From positions 3,348,001 through 3,412,000 of the forward strand of contig NC_089437.1 of the NCBI RefSeq assembly GCF_026210795.1: 64,000 nucleotides of DNA. Direction: 5' to 3'. Positions 22,863 to 64,000 of this stretch are shown here, piece after piece; positions within the stretch are counted from its first letter, which is position 1; each line of letters starts with the position of its first letter. The DNA is from Rhizophagus irregularis. Taxonomy: Eukaryota > Glomeromycota > Glomeromycetes > Glomerales > Glomeraceae. Below the pieces are notes generated by a model that ran no database searches, was not told where the DNA came from, and worked only from the letters and a program-made list of their open reading frames with translations. The position numbers and the translations under genes were made by a program.

Positions 22863-23060
22863 GTGGTAAAATTAAAAAATCCAATTTTATGGCAGACATA
22901 CTTCAATGCAACTATCCACGTTTATACCCCAGAAGGGATTATCAGTTGTCAAGAATGCCATGAAGCTGCAGACACTAATTCACACGTCGTTACATGTATC
23001 GAACACACGAATGCCATCCTAGAAAAACGATCATTTATCGGAGTTTTTTCCAAAAAATAA
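22863..23060 (+). pseudogene. LINE ORF2 C-terminal zinc-finger remnant
   Basis: A 65-aa frame whose middle (ISCQECHEAADTNSHVVTC, then EHTNAI) matches the pattern of the zinc-finger end of the LINE ORF2 in this window (ISCIECANAHDDNTHVGLC, then KEHSIHI). The spacing C-x2-C...H...C...EH is shared. No reverse transcriptase remains upstream, so this is a truncated fragment of a related but different LINE. Confidence 0.6.
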
Positions 23061-23760: not shown

Positions 23761-23780
23761 TATAAAAACTATAAAAACCC
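23761..23780 (+). promoter_or_regulatory. TATA-like promoter of the repeat-exon locus
   Basis: TATAAAAACTATAAAAACCC is followed 15-40 bases on by a CT-rich stretch, an arrangement typical of fungal RNA polymerase II start regions. It precedes the spliced, non-coding-looking locus. Confidence 0.5.
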
Positions 23781-23789
23781 TTCACTTAT

Positions 23790-24980
23790 TCACTTGTCCT
23801 ACTTCCTTCTTATTCTTTCTGCTTTTTTCTCTTCCCTCTCATCTTTCCCACTGTTGTCTAGGACCACGGCTCTCTGGACATCTCTTGGACAGAATTTCGA
23901 AGGTAAACTGTTTTTTTTTTGTTTTTTTTTATTTAGCAAAACGCTTACTAACGTTTTGGCTTTCTCTTTTGTAGGTTCCAGACGTTTCATTTTGTCGTCT
24001 CTCCACCTTCCTCTAGCCCATAGTCGATTTTTATAACTTTTCTTTTTCACCGTCTGCTTATGGAAATACTTAAGTGACTTCTAGGTATTTTGTTGGGTCC
24101 ATATTAACTATGTTTTCGTCGTCATACTTTATATGTTTGGAAATATTGTAGTATGTTTAAGTAGTCTTCGGGTATTTCGATGGAGCAGCATGATGCTATG
24201 CATGGGTGGGAGCATAGCGTGCTTACTTTGTAAGTCTGTGAGTACCAGCTTATGCTGCAGTCTCACAGTAGGGCTGGTTGGGAACTTGGAGTGGTATAGT
24301 ACTATGCGAGGGTTGGAGCATAGACGCTTACTTTTAGTAAGCTCGCAGGTACCAGTTTTTGCTGTAGTCCTGCGATAGGACCGAAGGTAAGTGCACTTTT
24401 TTTGTTATTTTTCAGTTTTATTTTTATTATGACTTTTTTATTTCTTCATTATTTTTAGCTTTGGGTATTTCTTTTGGAGCAGCATGACACTATGCGTTGG
24501 GTGGGAGCATAGCGTGCTTACTTTGTAAGCCTGTGAGTACCAGCTTTTGCTGCAGTCTCATGGTAGGGCTGGTTGGGAACTTGGAGCGGTATAGTACTAT
24601 GCGAGGGAAGGAGCATAGACGCTTACTTTTAGTAAGCTCGTAGGTACCAGTTTTTGCTGCAGTCCTGCGATAGGACCGAAGGTAAGTGCACTTTTTTTGT
24701 TATTTTACAGTTTTTTTTATTTTTTTATTTTATTTCTTCATTATTTTTAGCTTTGGGTATTTTTATTGGAGCAGCATGATGCTATGCGTTGGGTGGGAGC
24801 ATAGCGTGCTTACTTTGTAAGCCTGTGAGTACCAGCTTTTGCTGTAGTCTCACAGTAGGGCTGGTTGGTTGTGGTACGGCATGGTGCTATGCGTAATTTT
24901 CATGGGAGGAGCATAGTGCGCTTCTTAGGAAGTCCCTTGTGGCAGGGCCGTAGTACTAAATCATATGATGAAGTGCAAGA
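23790..24980 (+). ncRNA. Candidate spliced structured non-coding RNA with repeat exons
   Basis: Four introns can be read, all close to 70 bases: 23903-23974, 24085-24151, 24387-24458 and 24682-24750, with GTAAAC, GTATTT, GTAAGT and GTAAGT donors and TAG acceptors. The exons from 24152 on are tandem copies of one unit. The middle exon is 223 bases, not a multiple of three, so repetition shifts the frame, which argues against protein coding. Each unit contains two related halves. Each half has a GCTTAC/GTAAGC hairpin and a longer hairpin around TACCAG...CTG, with stem arms that differ between halves by paired changes. No known RNA family is recognised. Transcription and splicing are inferred from sequence only. 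Confidence 0.5.
24182..24880 (+). repeat. Tandem units of about 293 bases with paired hairpins
   Basis: Units start at 24182, 24476 and 24768 (GGAGCAGCATGA). The third diverges after about 24865. Hairpin stems: CTGTGAG/CTCACAG at 24236-24242 and 24262-24268; TCGCAGG/CCTGCGA at 24343-24349 and 24369-24375; CTGTGAG/CTCATGG at 24531-24537 and 24557-24563; TCGTAGG/CCTGCGA at 24638-24644 and 24664-24670; CTGTGAG/CTCACAG at 24823-24829 and 24849-24855. GCTATGC/GCATAGC arms and GCTTAC/GTAAGC arms recur as well. Confidence 0.85.
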
Positions 24981-31119: not shown

Positions 31120-32046
31120 CATTATCGTTATAATTAAAGTTCCCTGCCGAAATTAGGGAGTTTCGGCATGTCAAAATTGTCAAAACTATTTTGACATGTC
31201 AAAATTGTCGAAACCTAAAAATATTACATTTCACGTAATAACTCGGCGTCCAATGATCATAGAAAGATGCACCATAGCTCGTTGGAATCGTCTCATAACG
31301 ACGAGTCGAATGGTGGCTAAATCGTCTTTCTACGATCACTGGATGCCGAGTTATTGAGCGAAACGTCAAAAATCGGCATTTTGTATTTTGCGCTACTGCG
31401 CCGTTTGACGCTTCGTCTATTATCTCGGCATCCAATGATCGTAGAAAGATGATTTAACCACCATTCGACTCGTCGTTATGAGACGAATCCAACGAGCTAT
31501 GGTGCATCTTTCTACGATCATTGGATGCCGAGTTATTAAGTGAAACGTCAAATGGCGCAGTATCGCAAAATACAAAATGCTGATTTTTGACGTTTCGCTC
31601 AATATCTCGGCATCCAGTGATCGTAGAAAGACGATTTAGCAACCATTCGACTCGTCGTTATGAGACGATTCCAACGAGCTATGGTGCATCTTTCTACGAT
31701 CATTGGATGCCGAGTTATTAAGTGAAACGTCAAATGGCGCAGTATCGCAAAATACAAAATGCTGATTTTTGACGTTTCGCTCAATATCTCGGCATCCAGT
31801 GATCGTAGAAAGACGATCTAACCACCATTAGACTCGTCGTTATGAGACGATTCCAACAAGCTATGGTGCAACTTTCTACGATCATTGGACGCCGAGTTAT
31901 TACGCGAAACGTAATATTTTTAGGTTTCGACAATTTTGACATATCGAAACTATTTCGGCATTTCGGCATTTCTACAGGTTTTAGTTTCGACATTTCGACA
32001 ATAGCCTGTAGAGTTTTGGCAGGCAACTTTAGTTATAATGCTATCA
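31120..32046. mobile_element. Composite foldback element with four palindromic modules
   Basis: The outer ends are inverted (left TTATAATTAAAGTTCCCTGC near 31132; right GGCAGGCAACTTTAGTTATAA near 32016-32036). Inside them a second, longer inverted repeat carries CGAAACCTAAAAATATTAC near 31209 and its complement near 31908. Between are four modules of about 115 bases, at about 31230-31350, 31420-31533, 31602-31716 and 31783-31897. Each begins with a CTCGGC(A/G)TCCA arm and ends with the complementary TGG(A/C)..CCGAG arm. The first module is inverted relative to the other three. Spacers with CGTCAAATGGCGCAGTA or its complement separate them. No transposase is encoded. Confidence 0.8.
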
Positions 32047-47459: not shown

Positions 47460-49685
47460 ATAAAATTTAGCTTTAGTGTATTACACGATGTAATGAAGCA
47501 ACCAAATTTTTACCAACTTTTCTATCATCAGATAATTAGACTTATGTTCAAATAGCTGACGACTAATTACCTATATGTATAAAATGGATCAAACAAAGAA
47601 TCTAATTTTTTTTTTCATTTAGCTTTAGAATCTCTGACGCAAATTAAAGAGAATGAACGGTTAAAATTAGTTTCGTTGTCGTTGGTCAGGAAGCTGAGAT
47701 TGAATTCTCCTCTTTTTAAAAGTGCATCAAGGTAAACTCTTATATCTATCTCATTTATACTAAATAAGTCGTGTAATATATATTCAAAACTTTTGAATTT
47801 TAAGGCGAAATGGTTTATCATCTTTTATCGATATAATAAATTATTTCGGGGTGAATACTCTTGCTTATGCATGATCGTGGGAATGGGAAGGTTCATGGTA
47901 GGATTCCTTTTATAAATAAAACTGAAGATTAAAATATGTTCTTTTTTTTTCATCTTAAATAACATTCATATATCACTTTGTTTATTTTCCTTAGGTGATA
48001 ACATTTAATAAAACAATCATTATTTGTAGACCTCTATGATCATAATATTAAATTGTTTATAGCAGATAAAAATTCTATTACTTCGGGAAAAAAATTGTAC
48101 AGCTTTGACAAATTATACGATCACAATTATAAATAAATTATAACCAATTTTATGGATATGATAACTAAGTTAAAAGTTAGGAAATATTTCGCGGTATGAA
48201 TAAAGAAGATACGAATAATAAAACCACATTTTTTTTATTTTGGACTTTTGTGATTTTTTTAACGCTGATTGAATTCTTAATTTGTTTTAGTTATTATTGA
48301 ACGGAGTACATGGAGAAGAATTATCAAAGTGATTGCTAGAAGTTCAATCCCTCCTTCGTATGACAATCATATCGATGAAAAGGACACATATTCCACCGCG
48401 TAAAGCAGCTGAAGGTTGGAAGAATTATGGACAAAAGCGAATTTACCTGAAGAAGGTGGTAAATGGCGAAAAATTGGGTTCACGACTGACGCACCAAAAT
48501 GGAAATTTAACGAGTCGGATATTTAGGGCTTGAAAATATGCATGGATTTATGAAGAAAGATATTCAAAAAGTAAGTAAAATTGACTGACTGTAATATTAT
48601 CATATATAACCGATTTCTCACGTAACTTTATTTTGTTATTTGATAATTTTAGACAACATAATCGTCCTGCAGAACGAAGTTGTCCATTTGCAAAAACATC
48701 AATTGAGGCGGAACTATTATGTGATTATTGGGATGTTAGTACCGAATGTAAGTAATATTGTATGATTACTAACTCTTTACGTAATTTATGTTTTTCTCCA
48801 ATATAATTTTCCTTCCTTTTTAGATATAACGTCAAACGTCATTTTAAGCTTTATTGTTGGCGCTTGAAAAGATTCATTATGTAGCCGACAGTCAAACCAT
48901 TTTTCAGATTATGGAATGAAATAGAAGCGATGGTTGATGATTTTCCTAAAGTATCAGCTTTAGTGAGAAGTCAATTAAAATTTGCATTAAGAGACGAAGC
49001 GATAAAACAATTATATGAATTTGAAAAAGATATGTTGGAAGTTGAATATAAAGTTATTAGAGATAGAAAATTAAAAGAATTAGAATTAGATGATGATTTA
49101 TTAAGCAAACCCCAGTGAAGTAAATAATTCATCTAATGTGATTTGATTTTAATCTACTGTATTGTAAAATATTAATATAGGTATCCTGATTCCTGAGTCG
49201 AAATCTATTTCACCGAAACACATTTCACCGAAGCCATTTCGCCAAAGGGACATTTCACCGAAGAGACATTTCATCGAATAGACATTTCATCGAATAAACA
49301 TTTCACCGGATAGACATTTCGCCGAAGGACTTGTCGAAGTCATTTCGCCGAAAATTTCAAATCATACTTTTCCAAAATATCCATAATATTTATGAAAATT
49401 TTGTTATTAAAAACATTAATAATAATGTTTATTTCGATTATAGTTTAATATTTATCAATAAAAAATCAGGTATTAGATTGAATTTTTATTGATAACAACG
49501 CTAACATTTTCGGCAAATGTCCTATTTGGTGAAGTATCAAATATTTAAGTGTTTTTTTTTTAATAAAAAAAAATAGAATAATTTATTTATTAAATGTTAT
49601 CTTTTGATTTTAGTTGATTTATCTTTAGTGATTGATATAATGACAGGACCTTCACCACAGATAACATCGACACCTGGATCACCAA
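47460..49685 (+). pseudogene. Decayed duplicate of the ELMO gene
   Basis: Segments match ELMO exons but are scattered with stops and indels: exon 4 part (47470-47560, out of order), exon 2 (47625-47740), exon 3 (47800-47870), exon 4 (47995-48200), exon 5 (48295-48570), exon 6 (48650-48750), exon 7 (48820-49118, still open over VSALVRSQLKFALRDE) and the start of exon 9 (49613-49685). Exon 8 is missing, replaced by repeat DNA at about 49185-49550. Another piece of exon 9 reappears at 55375-55445. Confidence 0.85.
49205..49350. repeat. CATTTCACCGAA minisatellite-like repeats
   Basis: About ten variants of CATTTC(A/G)CCGAA or CATTTCATCGAATA are spaced 12-18 bases apart. An inverted relative (TTCGGCAAATGTCC) lies at about 49511-49524. 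The array sits where ELMO exon 8 would be in the pseudogene. Confidence 0.75.
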
Positions 49686-55793: not shown

Positions 55794-58700
55794 CTATCTA
55801 ATGTCAAAAACATTTTTGAGAAAACTATTTTGTAAAATTAAAAATAAATCTATATTATTGAACCCTATATTATCTCTATAAGTAGTCCAATGTCCTGAAT
55901 GTAAATAATTACTTGTCATCCAACGAATATGGGCGAAATTATCATTAAAGCCGCCATCCCTATAATAAGGAGTAGTGGCGAAGTGCCGAGAATTATAATG
56001 TCGACTTGGAGATAAATTGTGATCAGGAGCACCTGGATCAGGAGGAGGAGGAGTTCTTTTCTTATGTCGTTTTCTGTAAAATCTTTTTTTGTTTTTTGTG
56101 ATAGATAAAGTACTTTCCCATTGTTTAACTAAGGAAGCACGACGTGTCCAAATAAGTGCATCAATTGAAGACATTAAAGTCAAAAAAAATTTTGAAAATA
56201 AGGAAAATCGTAATTTTTTATTAATATAAGTATTAAAAATTTTAGTAAGGTCGCTCGGGACCAAATGGTGTATAAGTAAATAACCAGGATGTGATTGTGG
56301 TAAGGCATCAACAAAAGAGGTATTAAAAAGGGAAATATTTTTAATGGTTTCTTCCAAAATAGAATTTCCATCCTTAGTATTCTTCATAATAAGGTCGTGT
56401 AAGTCATGAGCAGCTCGTATTAATATGTTTTTGATATGAATTGAGTGTTCCTTGCATAAGCCCACGTGCGTATTATCGTCGTGGGCATTAGCGCATTCAA
56501 TGCAAGATATGCTGCCTATAGGGTATAAACGGGGGTAGTTGCGTTGTTGTATATCGATTGTTGGATATATAAAATTACATTTTTTAATTCTACTTCCTTG
56601 TTGTTTGGAAAGTTTGGCGCTACATGGAACGTCCTGATCGTTAAAATTCAACCATTCTTTGGTGAAAGTCCAATCAATGTCACCATCGATAATTTGTTGT
56701 TTGATCGGAGATAAGGCTTTATTATTGACCATCGAATTGAATATTAAAGGTTGGATGACGTTATCCGCCCATTTTCTGACGTTGCGATCTACAACGTGTA
56801 AACGATTCCAAGAAATGAAACCTAAACTTTGTTTAACAAAAAATTTATGATTAACAATAATAGGCTCAATAACATGAGCACCAGCTTTTGCTAGTAAATC
56901 TGCTTCATCATTATAAGGGTTATTACTATGTCCAGAAACTTTGTACAAAGAGACTAAAAGTTGCTTTTCTTCAATTAAGAAAAAAATTAAATCCCATATT
57001 AAAAAATTTGATTGTTTCAATTTTTGTCGCGGACTAGCGATGCCTGATAGCATACGCGTGTTAAAAATGGTAATGCAGTTGGCTGAATCGGTGTAAATAT
57101 TGATTTTACAGTTAAAAGGAGATACAATAAGGGCCGTGAGTATACCCATGCTTTCACTTTTGGAAGACGATGGGAAGAAGACTGTAGATCCACTGAACTT
57201 GACTCGCGGCATGAAGGGTTGAACTTGGGTCCATCCGTATCCACTAATACTATGAGTTGTACCAATATGTTGGACAGAACCATCTGTGTAAAAAGTTAAT
57301 AAATTTTCTAATTCTAATTGTTTTGCATCAAATTTTAATTCTTCTTTAAGGTCTGGATGACAAATTAGAGCGTGATCAATATGGTTATCTATATTATTTG
57401 AAAGTAAAGAGGGATAAGGTGTAAGAATAGTGTCCAAAGGACGTTGTGAAGAGGTATTCAAAGGGGATTTATCTATTTTAATAAAATGTTCGTATGCAAT
57501 ATGCCTAAGCGTATGAAAAGGTTTCGTAGCTACTACGAAATTCTGACGATTATAAAATTCTAAAAGTGATTTGTGTTCAAAGGAAGATTTTTTAAAAATA
57601 TTAAATAATAATAATTTTTGTGTTCTAATTGCGATAACACATGTCGGACGAGCGTCGTGTGGATAGTAAGAGTGTAAAAGGCAACCCTTGCACGCAATAA
57701 GTCCAAGTAATTGTTTTTTAGGTGTTAAACTATTATTATGATGGGTTTGTTGGGGTATAAAATGTTGTAAATAAGAAATTGAAGTTGAACGATCTGTTTC
57801 CTGTGTTAAGGTCTTTCCAAAGATAACTTGTTTTTGTACATTATTCCAATGTATCGTCCATTGTGATTTAGGTGTTGTAACATCTGGTAGAGTTGGAGGG
57901 GATTTATGTGTTCTATTAATGTCACATACAACATCGTTAAGAGGGTGGATCAGACGTAAGTTGTTACTAAGTACGTAATTGTCGGTTAAATTTTTGTACC
58001 ATGCCGGGATTGGACCACTATAATTGTTATTATTATTTCTTTTAACATCATGCCACGAGAGTAAATAGTTCCCGTCTGATGAAACGACTTGATCCATGTA
58101 AATGATGTTCTTAGCTTTAAGAGATTTAATGTCAGTGGCAGAAAGATCTGACATATAATCTCGTATAGGGGTATTTCCTCCTAAAATGTTAATATCAAAA
58201 GTGTAATTAATTGAAAATCCATATTGATTAAGCAAGCCTAAAGCTTGCGTTAAATAGGTAGGCTTGACTATATGGTCCAAATAGGTATTAATGTTGGACG
58301 GAATAGTAGGATACCAGATTTCCGATAGCGTGTTATATATTTTCTGAGTCGCTATTTCTCGAAGGACCGGTGTATTAAAAAGTGCACCTAAAATATTGAG
58401 TTGTGATTTCATTTGGATATCAAAAAAATTATTAATAGATTGGAACATATGGTTATAAATAATATTATCCGCCGTATTTGACGGAAGATTCAAACGTTGT
58501 TTGAATAATCTTTTCAATGGTCCCATTAAAGATTGACATTGTTTCGAATTAAGGATCGTATGTTGGAAAATATATTCCAATTTTGGTATAACTATTTTGT
58601 TAATAATATATTGTATATGGTGATGTGTTAATTTTTTGTTTTTCATAGTGTTGTAGTGAGCCATCACTATTTGTTTGCCTTTTCGTATCGTTTGCGTATA

Positions 58701-61595
58701 TTTGTCTAATGCATTAATGTATAAACCTAATATACGTTCACTTTTGTTACGAGGCGTGACAGGTGTTGCGTATGGCCGATTATTAATTGTGAGGATGATA
58801 TTCGGTTGTTTGATGGTACGGTCATTAGTTAGGATTTTGTATTTATCCATATTAACTTTAATGTTATTGAGGTCATAAAAGGAATTGGCAATTGATAATT
58901 TTTCTTCGATTTGCAATTGTGAAGAGCCAAACCACGTAGTGTCGTCGAGATAACCTACTACGGAGATGTCAAAGGTATGAATGACATCATTCTCTATATG
59001 TTGACAATTTTTCTTTTGTGTCGCAAAGGTGGAGTAATGTAAATGTGTTAATTGATTGATGCGATGAAACATCGGGTCATAGTATATATTCCAGAGAAGT
59101 GGTGAAACAACTTCGCCTTGGTCAATGCCTTGGAGAACTGCATAAGATGGCAGTAAACCATTCGTGGTTATGATTTCATTATGTCTTTCTGTAAATAAAT
59201 TAAGAAAAAAAGTAATAATAATATCAGGAATCTTTAAGCGTTTAAGCGCCAATTTCAATAATCGTAGGTCGACGCGATCGTATGCTTTTGATAAATCTTG
59301 TAATACGATCCAAATGGGTTTTTTCTTAATGCGCGCATGTTCTATTAAGTGTTGTGTAATCATAAGCGGCTCTAAAGTTGATTGGCCCAGAATGCCCGCT
59401 TTGTTGTTGAATTGTAAAATTGGGTGTTTGGAAAGGGCTTGATTTAATCTAGTTGAAATAATATTGACTAATAATTTCCTAGGAGTTTCCAGGAGAGTTA
59501 TAGGCCTTGTGTTAGTTAGTTTACTATTCCAATCATGTGGTTTCGGTATCGGAAAAAGCAACGCGTGTTTCCATTTATCCGGAATCACTTTAAGTGTAAT
59601 GCAAGCGTTGAAGATTTTGACGAGGATCATTAAAACGTCCTCGTGTAAATGTGTGATATCTTCATATGTGATTTTGGAAGGACCTGGCGCTTTGTTGTTA
59701 TTCAATTTTTTGAAAATGGAGGAAAGGTCCAAAAGAGTGATTGGTTCAGTTAAATGATTCCACCATTCTTCATCAATATTTTGTAAAGCAGGATCATAAT
59801 GATCTTTCCAATCTTGTGGTAGGGAGTCTAAATTCCAAATATTCTTTTCATTTGGAGGCCCCGCTTGGTATTGGAAATGTTTGATGGCTTCTTTTTCTAT
59901 AATCTCTGGGTTATTAGTAAATACCTGTTCACCTTTGTTGTCGATGAAAGAAAGTCTGTCCAACACTATACGGCGTGGTTTACGATTTAAAATAGAGTTA
60001 ATCATTTTGGTTTGATCATGTTGTAAATTGTCGTTGCGTTCTGTGACATAAGAACTAATTTTGTTGGTAAGGTATTTATCGTACGCAGATTGGTAAGCTA
60101 TTTTCATCGTATGATATAATCGATAAATTTCATCCTTTGTTGATACAAAATTATCAGGAGTAACCGTTGATGGTAAAGTGATTGATAATTTATTAAAATC
60201 TATTAAAATTTTTAAACGAGGGAGGTATTTCATCCATCCTTCATAATAGGTGGCCCATACGTGTCGTGGAATGTTGTGGAGGGTTGAAAGTGTGGGTGTG
60301 AAGTATAATTTAAAACGAATTTTAATATGTTTTAAATTTAAAAATTGTTTCACTTGATATAAAAGAATCACGTGATTATTCATTTGTCGTAATTCAAGAG
60401 GCAAATCTAGGTTTGATGATGTATTAAAATTAATAGATTTTTGTGGTATAATATGTTCTTTGAGTTCAATTAAGCATTTCTCAAAGAGGTCCCATTGCCG
60501 GTTTAAAGTATTTTTGTTATTAATTTGTTGAGGTTCCTTGGAAAATCTATATTTGAAGGTTGAACGACTACGATTCGTATAAGAGGACCATAATTCAACG
60601 GTCATTCGATCGTATTTGAAGACTTTCTTAACTTCATCATTCCGTTTATTAAAAGGAAGGACGTTCATGAACTTTTCAAATAAATCCTTGTTTCTTGAAT
60701 CGAAAAAAGTTTTTTCTAAAAGGGTTATAACAATTTTGTGATCAGTATTAAAGAAAGATTGTGGTATCGATTGTGTGTATGAATGAATTGATTGTTCTAA
60801 TAAATTCCTATTTCCATAATGGTAATCGATTCTATTTGTACTATGGGTGAAATTGTTATCTAAGGATTCTTGATGATATTTAATCATATCTTTGTATCCG
60901 TTATTTTTAAGTAAGCGGATGAAAGGATAATTCGGATCTGATTTATTCTTTGTGGTCACATTAAAATCGCCGATAACAATGGCGTATGAATTTTTTGTGT
61001 TGTTGGATTTAATAATAAATTTGTTCAATTTATCGACGCAGGCAGCGCTGATTTTGGTTTTGGTGACATCATTCTTAGGACTGGATGGTAAGTAGCAACA
61101 AGTTACGTTCAGTTGTTTTGATTTCTTGAAACCGAAGATAAGATTGATGATACGTCCTTCTGAAAATTCTGTATGATGAAGATGTTTTTCCATTTTGTCA
61201 GTAATCATGATAGCCACTCCAGTGCCTTTATTAGCGCCAGAGGTGTCGTGAACTATATGTATAAAATTATTAGGTAAAGTAGGATGTTTATGTTTGTTGA
61301 TAATAATATTTGATTGATCTCCAAAGAGACTAGTTTCTGCTAAACCAAGGATATCAAAATTGTGTACGACAAAATAATTAATAATGTCGTTAAGCTTGTT
61401 GTTAAAGGCTGTTTGAATATTAATACTGCCTATTTTAATATAGTCAATAAAGAAATTATTATCATTGATGTTATCTTGATTGATCACGTGTAAATTTGTA
61501 ATATGTTCTTCATTAATCAAGTGATCAGGGTTTTGTGATAAAGAGCATGAAATATTAGGAAAGGGATCGGATATATTTAAGTTGTTGTATGACAT
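55794..61595 (-). CDS. LINE ORF2: endonuclease, reverse transcriptase, RNase H
   Basis: 1933 codons without interruption. An APE-type endonuclease is at about residues 45-295 (GSINIQTAF, LGLAETS, GTGVAIMI, VIGDFNV, NRIDYHYG, NTDHKIV). The reverse transcriptase is at about 620-960 (NNKAPGPSKITYED, NTRPITLLE, AGILGQSTLEP, LQDLSKAYDRVD, GIDQGEVVSPLLWNIYYD, and catalytic GYLDDTTWFG near 881-885, with Leu where most elements have Ala). RNase H is at about 1430-1570 (FYTDGS, SKSESMGIL, IYTDSAN, SGHSNNPYNDEADLLAKAG). A zinc-finger-like end (SCIECANAHDDNTHVGLC) is near 1697. All expected catalytic acidic residues are visible. The protein would nick DNA and copy the element RNA at the target. Confidence 0.95.
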   Translation of the reverse strand: MSYNNLNISDPFPNISCSLSQNPDHLINEEHITNLHVINQDNINDNNFFIDYIKIGSINIQTAFNNKLNDIINYFVVHNFDILGLAETSLFGDQSNIIINKHKHPTLPNNFIHIVHDTSGANKGTGVAIMITDKMEKHLHHTEFSEGRIINLIFGFKKSKQLNVTCCYLPSSPKNDVTKTKISAACVDKLNKFIIKSNNTKNSYAIVIGDFNVTTKNKSDPNYPFIRLLKNNGYKDMIKYHQESLDNNFTHSTNRIDYHYGNRNLLEQSIHSYTQSIPQSFFNTDHKIVITLLEKTFFDSRNKDLFEKFMNVLPFNKRNDEVKKVFKYDRMTVELWSSYTNRSRSTFKYRFSKEPQQINNKNTLNRQWDLFEKCLIELKEHIIPQKSINFNTSSNLDLPLELRQMNNHVILLYQVKQFLNLKHIKIRFKLYFTPTLSTLHNIPRHVWATYYEGWMKYLPRLKILIDFNKLSITLPSTVTPDNFVSTKDEIYRLYHTMKIAYQSAYDKYLTNKISSYVTERNDNLQHDQTKMINSILNRKPRRIVLDRLSFIDNKGEQVFTNNPEIIEKEAIKHFQYQAGPPNEKNIWNLDSLPQDWKDHYDPALQNIDEEWWNHLTEPITLLDLSSIFKKLNNNKAPGPSKITYEDITHLHEDVLMILVKIFNACITLKVIPDKWKHALLFPIPKPHDWNSKLTNTRPITLLETPRKLLVNIISTRLNQALSKHPILQFNNKAGILGQSTLEPLMITQHLIEHARIKKKPIWIVLQDLSKAYDRVDLRLLKLALKRLKIPDIIITFFLNLFTERHNEIITTNGLLPSYAVLQGIDQGEVVSPLLWNIYYDPMFHRINQLTHLHYSTFATQKKNCQHIENDVIHTFDISVVGYLDDTTWFGSSQLQIEEKLSIANSFYDLNNIKVNMDKYKILTNDRTIKQPNIILTINNRPYATPVTPRNKSERILGLYINALDKYTQTIRKGKQIVMAHYNTMKNKKLTHHHIQYIINKIVIPKLEYIFQHTILNSKQCQSLMGPLKRLFKQRLNLPSNTADNIIYNHMFQSINNFFDIQMKSQLNILGALFNTPVLREIATQKIYNTLSEIWYPTIPSNINTYLDHIVKPTYLTQALGLLNQYGFSINYTFDINILGGNTPIRDYMSDLSATDIKSLKAKNIIYMDQVVSSDGNYLLSWHDVKRNNNNNYSGPIPAWYKNLTDNYVLSNNLRLIHPLNDVVCDINRTHKSPPTLPDVTTPKSQWTIHWNNVQKQVIFGKTLTQETDRSTSISYLQHFIPQQTHHNNSLTPKKQLLGLIACKGCLLHSYYPHDARPTCVIAIRTQKLLLFNIFKKSSFEHKSLLEFYNRQNFVVATKPFHTLRHIAYEHFIKIDKSPLNTSSQRPLDTILTPYPSLLSNNIDNHIDHALICHPDLKEELKFDAKQLELENLLTFYTDGSVQHIGTTHSISGYGWTQVQPFMPRVKFSGSTVFFPSSSKSESMGILTALIVSPFNCKINIYTDSANCITIFNTRMLSGIASPRQKLKQSNFLIWDLIFFLIEEKQLLVSLYKVSGHSNNPYNDEADLLAKAGAHVIEPIIVNHKFFVKQSLGFISWNRLHVVDRNVRKWADNVIQPLIFNSMVNNKALSPIKQQIIDGDIDWTFTKEWLNFNDQDVPCSAKLSKQQGSRIKKCNFIYPTIDIQQRNYPRLYPIGSISCIECANAHDDNTHVGLCKEHSIHIKNILIRAAHDLHDLIMKNTKDGNSILEETIKNISLFNTSFVDALPQSHPGYLLIHHLVPSDLTKIFNTYINKKLRFSLFSKFFLTLMSSIDALIWTRRASLVKQWESTLSITKNKKRFYRKRHKKRTPPPPDPGAPDHNLSPSRHYNSRHFATTPYYRDGGFNDNFAHIRWMTSNYLHSGHWTTYRDNIGFNNIDLFLILQNSFLKNVFDIR

Positions 61596-61714
61596 TATTT
61601 AAAATTTTTATATAAAATTGAAATGTATGTAAACCAGAAGTTGGGATGAAAACAATAAGGGGAATCAAAAAGGTATATCTATTTTCTTTATGATTATAAA
61701 GAATGAATCACAAA

Positions 61715-63859
61715 TTAAACCTGGGGTTTATTGCCCCAATTAAATGGGTTAAGGATGAAGCTTGATTGTCCTGAAATTTCTTGTTCAGCCGCTTCATATG
61801 TATTTTCAATGGTACCCGTATCGGAGACATCTCCAGATTCAGTGTAATATTCGTCTGAAAGTGGGAGTGCATCACTGTCAGTCATAACCGATTCAGAGGA
61901 TGGTTGGATAAACCGTTTTTTCACATCCTTCAAAGGTGTTTTTTCATATGGGGTATTAGTACGTTTAGCTTTTCTGGCTGGTTGTTGTCGGGAGGATGGC
62001 GTTTGTGATGCTTGTAGAGTGTTAATGAGCGTTTGCATCTGGGTCATTAAGGTTTTATGTTGATTTTCAAGACTATCTTGTCTATGTGTAAGCAACGCTA
62101 TGTTAGTGTCAATTGTGGTTAATTGTTGATGATGTGAAGAGTATTGTTCCGTGAATGTTTGGTGGGAACCTTGTAATACGCTAACGTGATTTGTTAAGGT
62201 AGTAATTTGTTGTTCCATATGCGCAATTTTGTCTAAGATTTCTTGAGGGAGTTGTTGTTGGGACCAGGACGACGTAGACTTCTGATGCGTCCTATCCGGG
62301 TGACTCGGAGTGTTGTTATAAGTTTGTTTTTGTTTGCCTCGTGTGGTCAGTTGAGGGCGAGATTGTACAGTTGAATTACCAGGATTGTCTTTGGAGAGTC
62401 TTATGACGTGATTATAATTTTGTCTGGTTGTTTCGTTGATAAGAATACGTTCTTTGTTACGTGTGATGAAACGTCTTTTGAAAATTTTACGTTCATTTTT
62501 GTCTAGGGTGAAATCGGTACTAGTGCAATTTTTATATTCGTGTGTATGATTTCCACATGCATTGCAAGTTTTTTTGGTATTGGTATGGGGGAAGATGAAA
62601 ATTGTATGTTGTCCAAATTTTGTACCCGTAATTGTGGTATAATCCTTTTTAACGTCATTCGGGTGAACATATATGAATGCGTTTTTGAAAAATGATGAGC
62701 GTGAGGTTTGGGTAAATGTACACGTACGTCCCTTTAGATGTTCAACTAAAGGGCTTAAATCTTTTGCGTTCGTGTTTAAAGGTAGACCAGTGATTTTATA
62801 GAAAGCTGACGTTCGTTGTGTGTATATCGGATGTTTTGGATTGCCTGGTAAGATTCTGGCTACTGAGTCCTCAATGGCTAAGCACCAGTCTTGTTCTAAC
62901 AAGTAATCTGCCGCAGCTTTGTCCTCAAAGCTGATTATTAATTGTTTATAAATTGGTTTGATAAAAATTGGTTTATCATTTTTGTTGCGGTTTTGGATTC
63001 TTTGAGGTGGTTTCTTGGTTTCTTTGTAAGTTGTGATTCGTTTTCCCGTTGCATCAGTTATTTGTTTTATTAATAACGTGACATCGTAATTGACAGGGAT
63101 ATCTAATATTTTGATGATGGTGTCATCTTGTAATTGAAGTTTTCGTTCAATTAGGGTATCTATATTGTGTTGTGTATATTCATAAATTTTAACGTTAGGA
63201 AGGGTTGGAGGTGATGTTTTGATAAGGTGTGACAATTTCTCCTTAGTCGACACAGATATCATGTAAAATTTGAACGTCATCTTTTTAAGAGATCTGACTT
63301 TGATAAATTCTTTGTCTCCGATAAAGATGGTATTGAGTTTTTGTAAAATTTCTTTGTCTGTAAGTTTTGGTGGAAAACTATCTCGTGGGATAAACCCTTC
63401 AAAAGAAGTTTGTGTTTGTGTATTTGAGGCTGAAAATATGTTGTCGATCATGGGAATTTCCTCCATTGGTGGTGGATTGCCATTAATGGATGTAGATCCT
63501 TCTGAAAGTTGTTGTGTTTCATTATTATTGGTAACTTCTATTTCCATTTCATCAACCGTTTCAACGATTGGTGCATTTGGTAAATGGGGAGTGGAGTCAC
63601 GTGTTATTAAAGAATTATTCCCAGGGACTTGCTCCACGGAGGAGGAAGTTTGAGAAAGTGAAGTCAAAGCAGGCTCGGCTGTCTTATGACTATTATTGTT
63701 GTTAGTTGTGGGTATATTCGACATTTTTCTATTTCTGTTATTATTAACGTTAGGAGCGAAAGTTCTATATATGTCTTCTTTGTCGGTAGTAGAATGATAT
63801 GTTTTTTCAATATTTTTTAGAATTTTTTGAGAAAACTTGGAACGAGTGTTTCTACTCAT
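61715..63859 (-). CDS. LINE ORF1: nucleic-acid-binding protein
   Basis: 714 codons, uninterrupted. It has a polar Ser/Thr/Asn-rich N-terminus, a middle region with alternating strand-like segments (FKFYMISVSTKEKLS, QLIISFEDKAAADYLLEQD) suggesting RRM-like folds, a CCHC knuckle CNACGNHTHEYKNC near residue 430-445 followed by basic residues, and a glutamine-rich coiled coil at about 533-606 (MEQQITTLTNHVSVLQ). The tail is acidic. In LINEs ORF1 binds element RNA and escorts it with ORF2. The first ATG of the frame is used. Confidence 0.9.
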   Translation of the reverse strand: MSRNTRSKFSQKILKNIEKTYHSTTDKEDIYRTFAPNVNNNRNRKMSNIPTTNNNNSHKTAEPALTSLSQTSSSVEQVPGNNSLITRDSTPHLPNAPIVETVDEMEIEVTNNNETQQLSEGSTSINGNPPPMEEIPMIDNIFSASNTQTQTSFEGFIPRDSFPPKLTDKEILQKLNTIFIGDKEFIKVRSLKKMTFKFYMISVSTKEKLSHLIKTSPPTLPNVKIYEYTQHNIDTLIERKLQLQDDTIIKILDIPVNYDVTLLIKQITDATGKRITTYKETKKPPQRIQNRNKNDKPIFIKPIYKQLIISFEDKAAADYLLEQDWCLAIEDSVARILPGNPKHPIYTQRTSAFYKITGLPLNTNAKDLSPLVEHLKGRTCTFTQTSRSSFFKNAFIYVHPNDVKKDYTTITGTKFGQHTIFIFPHTNTKKTCNACGNHTHEYKNCTSTDFTLDKNERKIFKRRFITRNKERILINETTRQNYNHVIRLSKDNPGNSTVQSRPQLTTRGKQKQTYNNTPSHPDRTHQKSTSSWSQQQLPQEILDKIAHMEQQITTLTNHVSVLQGSHQTFTEQYSSHHQQLTTIDTNIALLTHRQDSLENQHKTLMTQMQTLINTLQASQTPSSRQQPARKAKRTNTPYEKTPLKDVKKRFIQPSSESVMTDSDALPLSDEYYTESGDVSDTGTIENTYEAAEQEISGQSSFILNPFNWGNKPQV

Positions 63860-64000
63860 GTAAATAATGTAAACAAGAGTGTAGAGTCCGAAAAATCACG
63901 ATTTAGACCAGGTTTATATGTAGGAAAAGTAGTTTCTATAGTATGTTTCTTTAGCAAAAAAAATGGTCAGAGTGATCGTCCGAAAAAGTTCCTCTTCAAA

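Follow-up and report, generated by a model that had tools for sequence, protein, structure and literature searches.

Does the array of repeated hairpins in this stretch of Rhizophagus irregularis DNA encode an RNA and, if so, of what kind? The stretch, hereafter the window, comprises 64,000 nucleotides of contig NC_089437.1 (positions 3,348,001 to 3,412,000, forward strand). The array had been put forward, from the sequence alone, as a candidate new structured RNA. This original prediction is supported as the best reading because covariation was found both between and within types of a repeated module, promoter-like and splice signals lie on the same strand, no reading frame is kept and no Rfam family is matched at gathering score; transcription is unproven. 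The following were established directly: a fold with covariation, a rule of module order, splice words, a promoter-like element and leader in several loci, the absence of a coding frame, and modules that are kept while their flanks decay. The best explanation, which we hold to be nearly as likely right as wrong, is a dispersed gene family for a spliced non-coding RNA of the Pol II type, made of a chain of folded modules and probably serving as a multivalent protein-binding scaffold; neither transcription nor function has been shown. Arbuscular mycorrhizal fungi help the roots of most plant species (PMC10234402), and little on their longer non-coding RNAs was found in the open-access literature searched.

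Genome searches and locus counts

The genome of R. irregularis DAOM197198 (32 contigs, 146,748,485 bases) was searched with the window array and three other copies as queries, and the 45 loci found were parsed with profiles built from 18 singletons. Pattern searches gave 10 further, divergent places, eight of which match the covariance model with best E-values of 3.2e-6 or lower; L059 and L060 matched the C pattern, but gave no covariance model match at E-values up to 1. Modules are carried by at least 53 loci (the 45 parsed and eight more divergent), and locus counts are lower bounds because 40 of the 75 candidates from the first search were scored and the pattern search took in 100 of 171 places. 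The P2 motif of the modules gave 171 genome matches, against none for the pattern read backwards.

Layout of the window locus

The features of the locus, all on the plus strand, are listed in table 1. The prediction had described tandem hairpins, two in each unit, at 24182-24880. Tandem hairpins as the layout held in part: each hairpin is one arm (P4) of a module of about 100 nt folded as a four-way junction (P1 to P4). In addition, the units are separated by putative introns, and a third module type, C, reaches beyond the proposed end.

Table 1. Positions of the array gene features in the window.
Feature	Position	Strand	Remarks
TATA-type promoter element (TATAAAAACTATAAAAACCC)	23761..23780	+	function inferred; aligned upstream regions
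Putative exon 1, pyrimidine-rich, no ATG	23795..23902	+	transcription start inferred only
Putative intron 1, GTAAAC donor, TTTTGTAG acceptor	23903..23974	+	TACTAAC branch site at 23946-23952
Module A1	24181..24280	+	profile match; covariance model match, 118.8 bits
Module B1	24286..24383	+	profile and covariance model match
Putative intron between units 1 and 2	24387..24458	+	AAG/GTAAGT ... TTTTTAG/CTTTGGG (slash, splice site); no TACTAAC
Module A2	24474..24575	+	profile and covariance model match
Module B2	24581..24678	+	profile and covariance model match
Putative intron between units 2 and 3	24682..24750	+	no TACTAAC word
Module A3	24766..24867	+	profile and covariance model match
Terminal module C, TACGGC/GCCGTA closing stem	24872..24953	+	profile match; A+B model, E 2.2e-6
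Candidate polyadenylation signal AATAAA	25019..25024	+	weak for a single locus, region AT-rich

Module fold

Three homologous module types were distinguished, A, B and the terminal C, all sharing the four-way junction. The closing stem P1 is CAGC/GCTG in A, CGGT/ACCG in B and as given in table 1 in C. The P2 stem (CTATGC/GCATAG) carries a loop in which GGG, one or two bases and GGA follow one another in 85 of 89 A, 53 of 59 B and 38 of 41 C copies, and P3 is GCTTAC/GTAAGC in A and B and CTTC/GAAG in C. For P4, the claim that each unit holds two homologous hairpins around TACCAG...CTG held, with arms CTGTGAG/CTCACAG in type A and TCGCAGG/CCTGCGA in type B, as did the claim that five of the seven stem pairs differ between these types, each change with its match on the other arm. 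A tertiary contact between loop and P4 (GGU with ACC) was considered and dropped because both sides hardly vary (judged by eye).

Within the putative exon, P3 of module A1 (24221-24235) and its equivalents form a CTTAC/GTAAG hairpin in which a 5′ splice-site-like word is locked in a stem. It is possible that this stem keeps the word from use.

Covariation of the module stems

Modules that did not cover their profile almost fully were excluded, which left 189 of the 195 parsed modules. For types A and B together, 67 of the 136 distinct modules were used, one per cluster at 95.5% identity. The 26 named pairs were formed in 99.0% of 1687 cells in these modules, and sliding the partner by 1-3 columns brought pairing down to 22-50%. 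Eleven pairs were changed on both sides (shuffled 7.0; 2 of 500 as high), the cells with two-sided changes numbered 151 (shuffled 55.7; 0 of 500 as high) and the score was 0.275 (shuffled 0.170; 0 of 500 as high); the number of further pair types in the same set was not unusual (28 against 26.7, 97 of 500 shuffles as high).

Each type was also tested alone, because most of the combined signal stems from one old split between A and B. Two-sided changes were found at six pairs and in 15 cells in type A (shuffled 1.9 and 3.2; 0 of 500 as high), at six pairs and in eight cells in type B (shuffled 0.7 and 0.7; 0 of 500 as high), and at three pairs and in three cells in type C (shuffled 0.4 and 0.4; 2 of 500 as high), a total of 15 pairs within types. 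These within-type tests, like the G-U tests given below, exclude one apical pair of B and five weak apical pairs of C. Across the genomic copies, two-sided changes exceed those in shuffles between as well as within types, with the caveat that the shuffle controls do not preserve the relatedness of the copies.

The fold of C was approached separately. A covariance model built from A and B alone found 10 of 11 C modules at full model length in the 10 sources searched (six at E-values of 5e-7 to 9e-6 and four at 3e-4 to 0.01), among them that of the window, with no C module used in model building; the C module of L029 was missed by this model. In 22 of the 39 distinct C modules the four-way fold shows four two-sided changes, a number reached by 1 of 500 shuffles. 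A rival fold of C as a long hairpin was tried and rejected: it shows two, both in a stem that the four-way fold also contains, a number equalled in 57 of 500 shuffles. Against the four-way fold, predicted energy favours this rival for C alone (-30.6 against -26.2 kcal/mol). Single-sequence fold z-scores of the six window modules are modest (-1.7, -2.5, -0.2, -2.6, -2.9 and -2.0) and count as weak evidence.

Natural hybrid modules were found at L035 (3836-3941 and 4140-4245 of that locus), in which the 5′ half resembles C and the 3′ half resembles B. The closing stem of these hybrids is paired as CGGC/GCCG, GCCG standing in place of the ACCG of B. We consider it very likely that the modules are a real conserved RNA fold.

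RNA or DNA as the target of selection

The original prediction had pointed to two single changes that leave G-U pairs, CTCATGG at 24557 and TCGTAGG at 24638, and had taken these to fit selection on RNA rather than only on DNA. Both pairs are as described when read from the sequence. The inference from them received modest support only: stem variants present in at least two loci comprise 24 of the G-U type and 11 of the A-C type (p 0.04, with equal opportunity), and all stem variants 43 and 36, respectively. In loops, the same classes number 11 (at 26 C+A sites) and 29 (at 90 G+U sites), no clear excess when base counts are allowed for. A Fisher test of stems against loops was set aside, the loops being uncorrected for base make-up.

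The rival explanation is that selection acts on the DNA, as a cruciform or recombination substrate. In its favour, inverted repeats could extrude, and minus-strand folds have z-scores of -3.4, -4.7 and -1.5 in three tests, the first two of which, for A and B, are below the plus-strand values. Against it, the splice words and the promoter-like element are all oriented on a single strand, and the excess of G-U-type over A-C-type stem variants, albeit from a modest test, points the same way. Selection on DNA is very unlikely in our judgement.

Module order

The 45 parsed loci contain 2-11 modules each, and their order is nearly fixed. All begin with A-B except L027 (A-C), and all end in C except L051 (A-B). 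The order A-B-C accounts for 28 loci, A-B-A-B-A-C for six and A-B-A-B-A-B-A-C for three, with eight other orders found once each; the longest consists of A-B, eight A modules and C. Linkers of 4-12 nt lie between A-B, B-C and A-C modules.

Putative introns, upstream elements and 3′ ends

Between modules, 47 gaps of at least 60 nt were counted, spread over 15 of the 45 loci. Each of them starts with a splice donor, which is GTAAGT in 38, and 45 end with an acceptor pattern, the resulting introns spanning 68-85 nt; the two without an acceptor are the C-A gap of L028 and the A-C gap of L037, where C is truncated. Neither TACTAAC nor even CTRAY is present in any of the 47 gaps, so that the branch site of these introns is unidentified; ATGA is present in 40.

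The region upstream of the window array aligns with that of only 8 of the 44 other loci at an E-value of 1e-4. Within these nine aligned regions, a TATAAAAACCC-type element is present in eight (the window and seven of the others; L037 differs), and a pyrimidine-rich leader is common to them, with AAG before GT in seven. The GTAAAC donor of intron 1 and TACTAACG, which includes TACTAAC, are present in seven and lost in L029 and L031, and the TTTTGTAG acceptor is present in all nine. For the 28 A-B-C singletons only 0.5-0.7 kb of upstream sequence was covered. Four singletons with longer flanks have a common ATAAAAGTTTG element of their own and a CT-rich leader, which by eye contains decayed B-like fragments. 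Downstream, 30 of 44 loci have AATAAA in the 150 nt that follow C, compared with 42.5% of base-shuffled stretches (p 5e-4).

A protein-coding origin of the exons was considered, in favour of which a 97-codon stop-to-stop frame spans unit 1. It was rejected on frame loss and is all but excluded: frames from a common ATG run for anything from 12 to 94 codons in 26 of the 28 singletons, two singletons are without that ATG, and the spacing of landmarks from A to C falls in all three phases (12, 7 and 6 of 25).

Conservation, duplication and mobility

Among the 28 singletons, 24 of 378 pairs have 3′ flanks clearly more alike than shuffled sequence, and in every one of these 24 the modules exceed the flanks in similarity (0.997 and 0.715, respectively, in one case). 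A strict identity measure was used for the flanks, a gap-excluding one being too lenient in AT-rich flanks. The loci L024 and L043 are recent duplicates with modules 0.997 alike and many substitutions and indels in the flanks. Purifying selection, or at least in part gene conversion, could explain this conservation; selection is favoured over gene conversion because of the compensatory changes. L024 is without promoter-side sequence that is present in L043, so that some copies may be dead.

Two tandem loci are homologous up to 2.8-2.9 kb upstream, near the 3 kb compared. In four singletons the homology has breaks and runs about 1.2-1.8 kb upstream and 200-320 nt downstream without a common end. 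We read this pattern as segmental duplication; target-site duplications were not scanned for. The joined B/A exon junction was not above noise in the genome (three matches at three mismatches, against eight for the reversed control). There is thus no sign of processed copies, as introns are retained and the joined junction was not found, a statement that covers the B/A junction only.

These data bear on the main unresolved rival, a non-autonomous mobile or selfish RNA resembling a SINE, whose fold would be kept for spreading. Like SINEs and other non-autonomous retroelements, the modules form many dispersed copies of a short folded RNA, and both the number of loci (at least 53) and the varied number of modules suit this reading; a curation study adds SINE families for R. 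irregularis (PMC11075540), with whose sequences the modules were not compared. Unlike such elements, the modular loci retain introns, show no processed B/A junction above the control, and resemble segmental duplications in that their homology extends past the modules, by varying distances, in both directions. Inspection by eye showed no common 3′ tail, and compensatory change continues within the module types. With ARAGORN as the only test that touches on internal Pol III promoter boxes, what several tandem loci have in common is a TATA-type upstream element. On balance a SINE-like origin is unlikely.

Comparison with known RNA families

The prediction had named no known family with this layout. 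Rfam 15 gave no match at gathering score in the window or in eight loci; at E-values up to 5, three minus-strand matches were obtained (E 1.2-2), far below gathering scores. ARAGORN found no tRNA genes in the window. No relatives were found in plasmids (blastn), viral contigs or bacterial and archaeal genomes (one exact degenerate pattern each), a search that did not cover fungi, and no description of the modular RNA was found in the titles and abstract starts of the open-licence PMC literature searched. Since no Rfam model exists, pipelines based on Rfam would miss the modular RNA, and those that annotate repeats may treat it as an unclassified repeat and mask it.

A precursor of siRNAs or miRNA-like RNAs was considered, since a small RNA pathway is active in R. 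irregularis and miRNA-like loci are present (PMC6399891); these loci share with the array the organism and the form of hairpin RNA loci of similar length. Against this, the window and the loci examined contain no match, with up to three substitutions, to the 10 published mature miRNA-like sequences, and no stem in the consensus folds runs unbroken for more than nine pairs. A small-RNA precursor is accordingly rated as very unlikely.

The remaining rival is a polycistronic precursor, in which the spliced RNA would be cut into single module RNAs that act singly. Clusters of snoRNAs are cut from such precursors, and resemble the array in having several folded RNAs of about 100 nt in one intron-bearing transcription unit; the modules are indeed self-closed domains of near constant size joined by short linkers. 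The linkers are, however, too short for an obvious processing site, the retained splice words would join the modules as a chain, and the terminal position of C points to the end of a chain. The modules also differ from snoRNA clusters in lying in putative exons rather than introns and in matching no snoRNA or other family of Rfam. We regard such a precursor as unlikely.

A multivalent scaffold as the preferred reading

The preferred reading is thus a spliced chain. Each RNA would consist of modules mostly in the order A-B-(A-B or A)n, with C as the closing module at the 3′ end. The loci are inferred, in the absence of transcript data, to be transcribed and their units spliced together. The repeated modules would then bind the same protein many times and so form a multivalent scaffold or sponge, although no binding protein is known. 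Candidate contacts for such a protein are the G-rich P2 loop and the word GGAGC, which occurs in A and B at the junction and again in P2; both are inferred. Module C may mark or protect the 3′ end, and the many loci, with their differing module numbers, may serve dosage and valency.

Long non-coding RNAs with repeated folded domains are known, among them the roX RNAs and the A-repeat of Xist. The proposed RNA would resemble these as a spliced Pol II-type RNA with repeated stem-loop domains able to bind protein repeatedly. It differs from them in its four-way junctions of about 100 nt, its near fixed order, its terminal module and its dozens of dispersed fungal loci, and has no Rfam link to them.

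A bolder reading, against which we lean slightly, is that of a new RNA class in arbuscular mycorrhizal fungi: an encoded chain of four-way junctions that follows a start rule and finishes in an end cap, its length varied by gain and loss of exon-intron units, acting as a valency-tuned scaffold of a nuclear body, an RNP or packaging. The modular chain is called new because no family tested has its layout; its mechanism class is not established. Natural copies of 2 to 11 modules, together with the natural hybrids, offer a ready system for the study of modular RNA function and of how length is set.

Related leaders and micro-exon arrays

The leader of the window array has at least 60 matches in the genome, including the own leaders of array genes (40 of 132 candidates scored). 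At L071 (960-1190) sequence without modules follows a promoter and leader that resemble the array gene's. The leader may possibly serve other transcription units too.

Units similar to the region of intron 1 are repeated elsewhere in the genome, and 23859-23987 of the window is a related unit. Four loci (L067, L068, L069 and L070) are non-coding micro-exon arrays, with exons typically of 30-42 nt, introns of about 78 nt and up to 20 introns parsed in 3 kb; A, B and C modules are absent from them, and we take them to be possibly introner-like. In many units the end of the exon pairs with the start of the intron, forming a hairpin whose loop holds the 5′ splice site, and a second hairpin has a TACTAAC-type branch site within or next to its loop. 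Over 52 units, the complementarity of the exon to its own intron was 17.4, compared with 15.3 (s.d. 0.41) with swapped introns (0 of 1000 as high), and the second hairpin scored 15.9, compared with 9.9 in base shuffles.

Other features of the window and genome

A LINE-type element with two long open frames, one of which contains RVT_1 and RNase_H, occupies 55794-63895 on the minus strand, and a piece of a frame similar by eye to its own lies upstream of the array (22863-23060). For 5S rRNA there are 11 genome matches at 103 bits, mostly dispersed, and few, non-tandem rDNA copies have been described in R. irregularis (PMC6123716). Two simple arrays were also noted in the window: a 182-bp tandem repeat of 2.8 copies with 94% matches in AT-rich surroundings (31404-31912), and an array with periods of 32 and 48 bp whose 16-bp unit is close to ATTTCACCGAAGAGAC (49207-49327).
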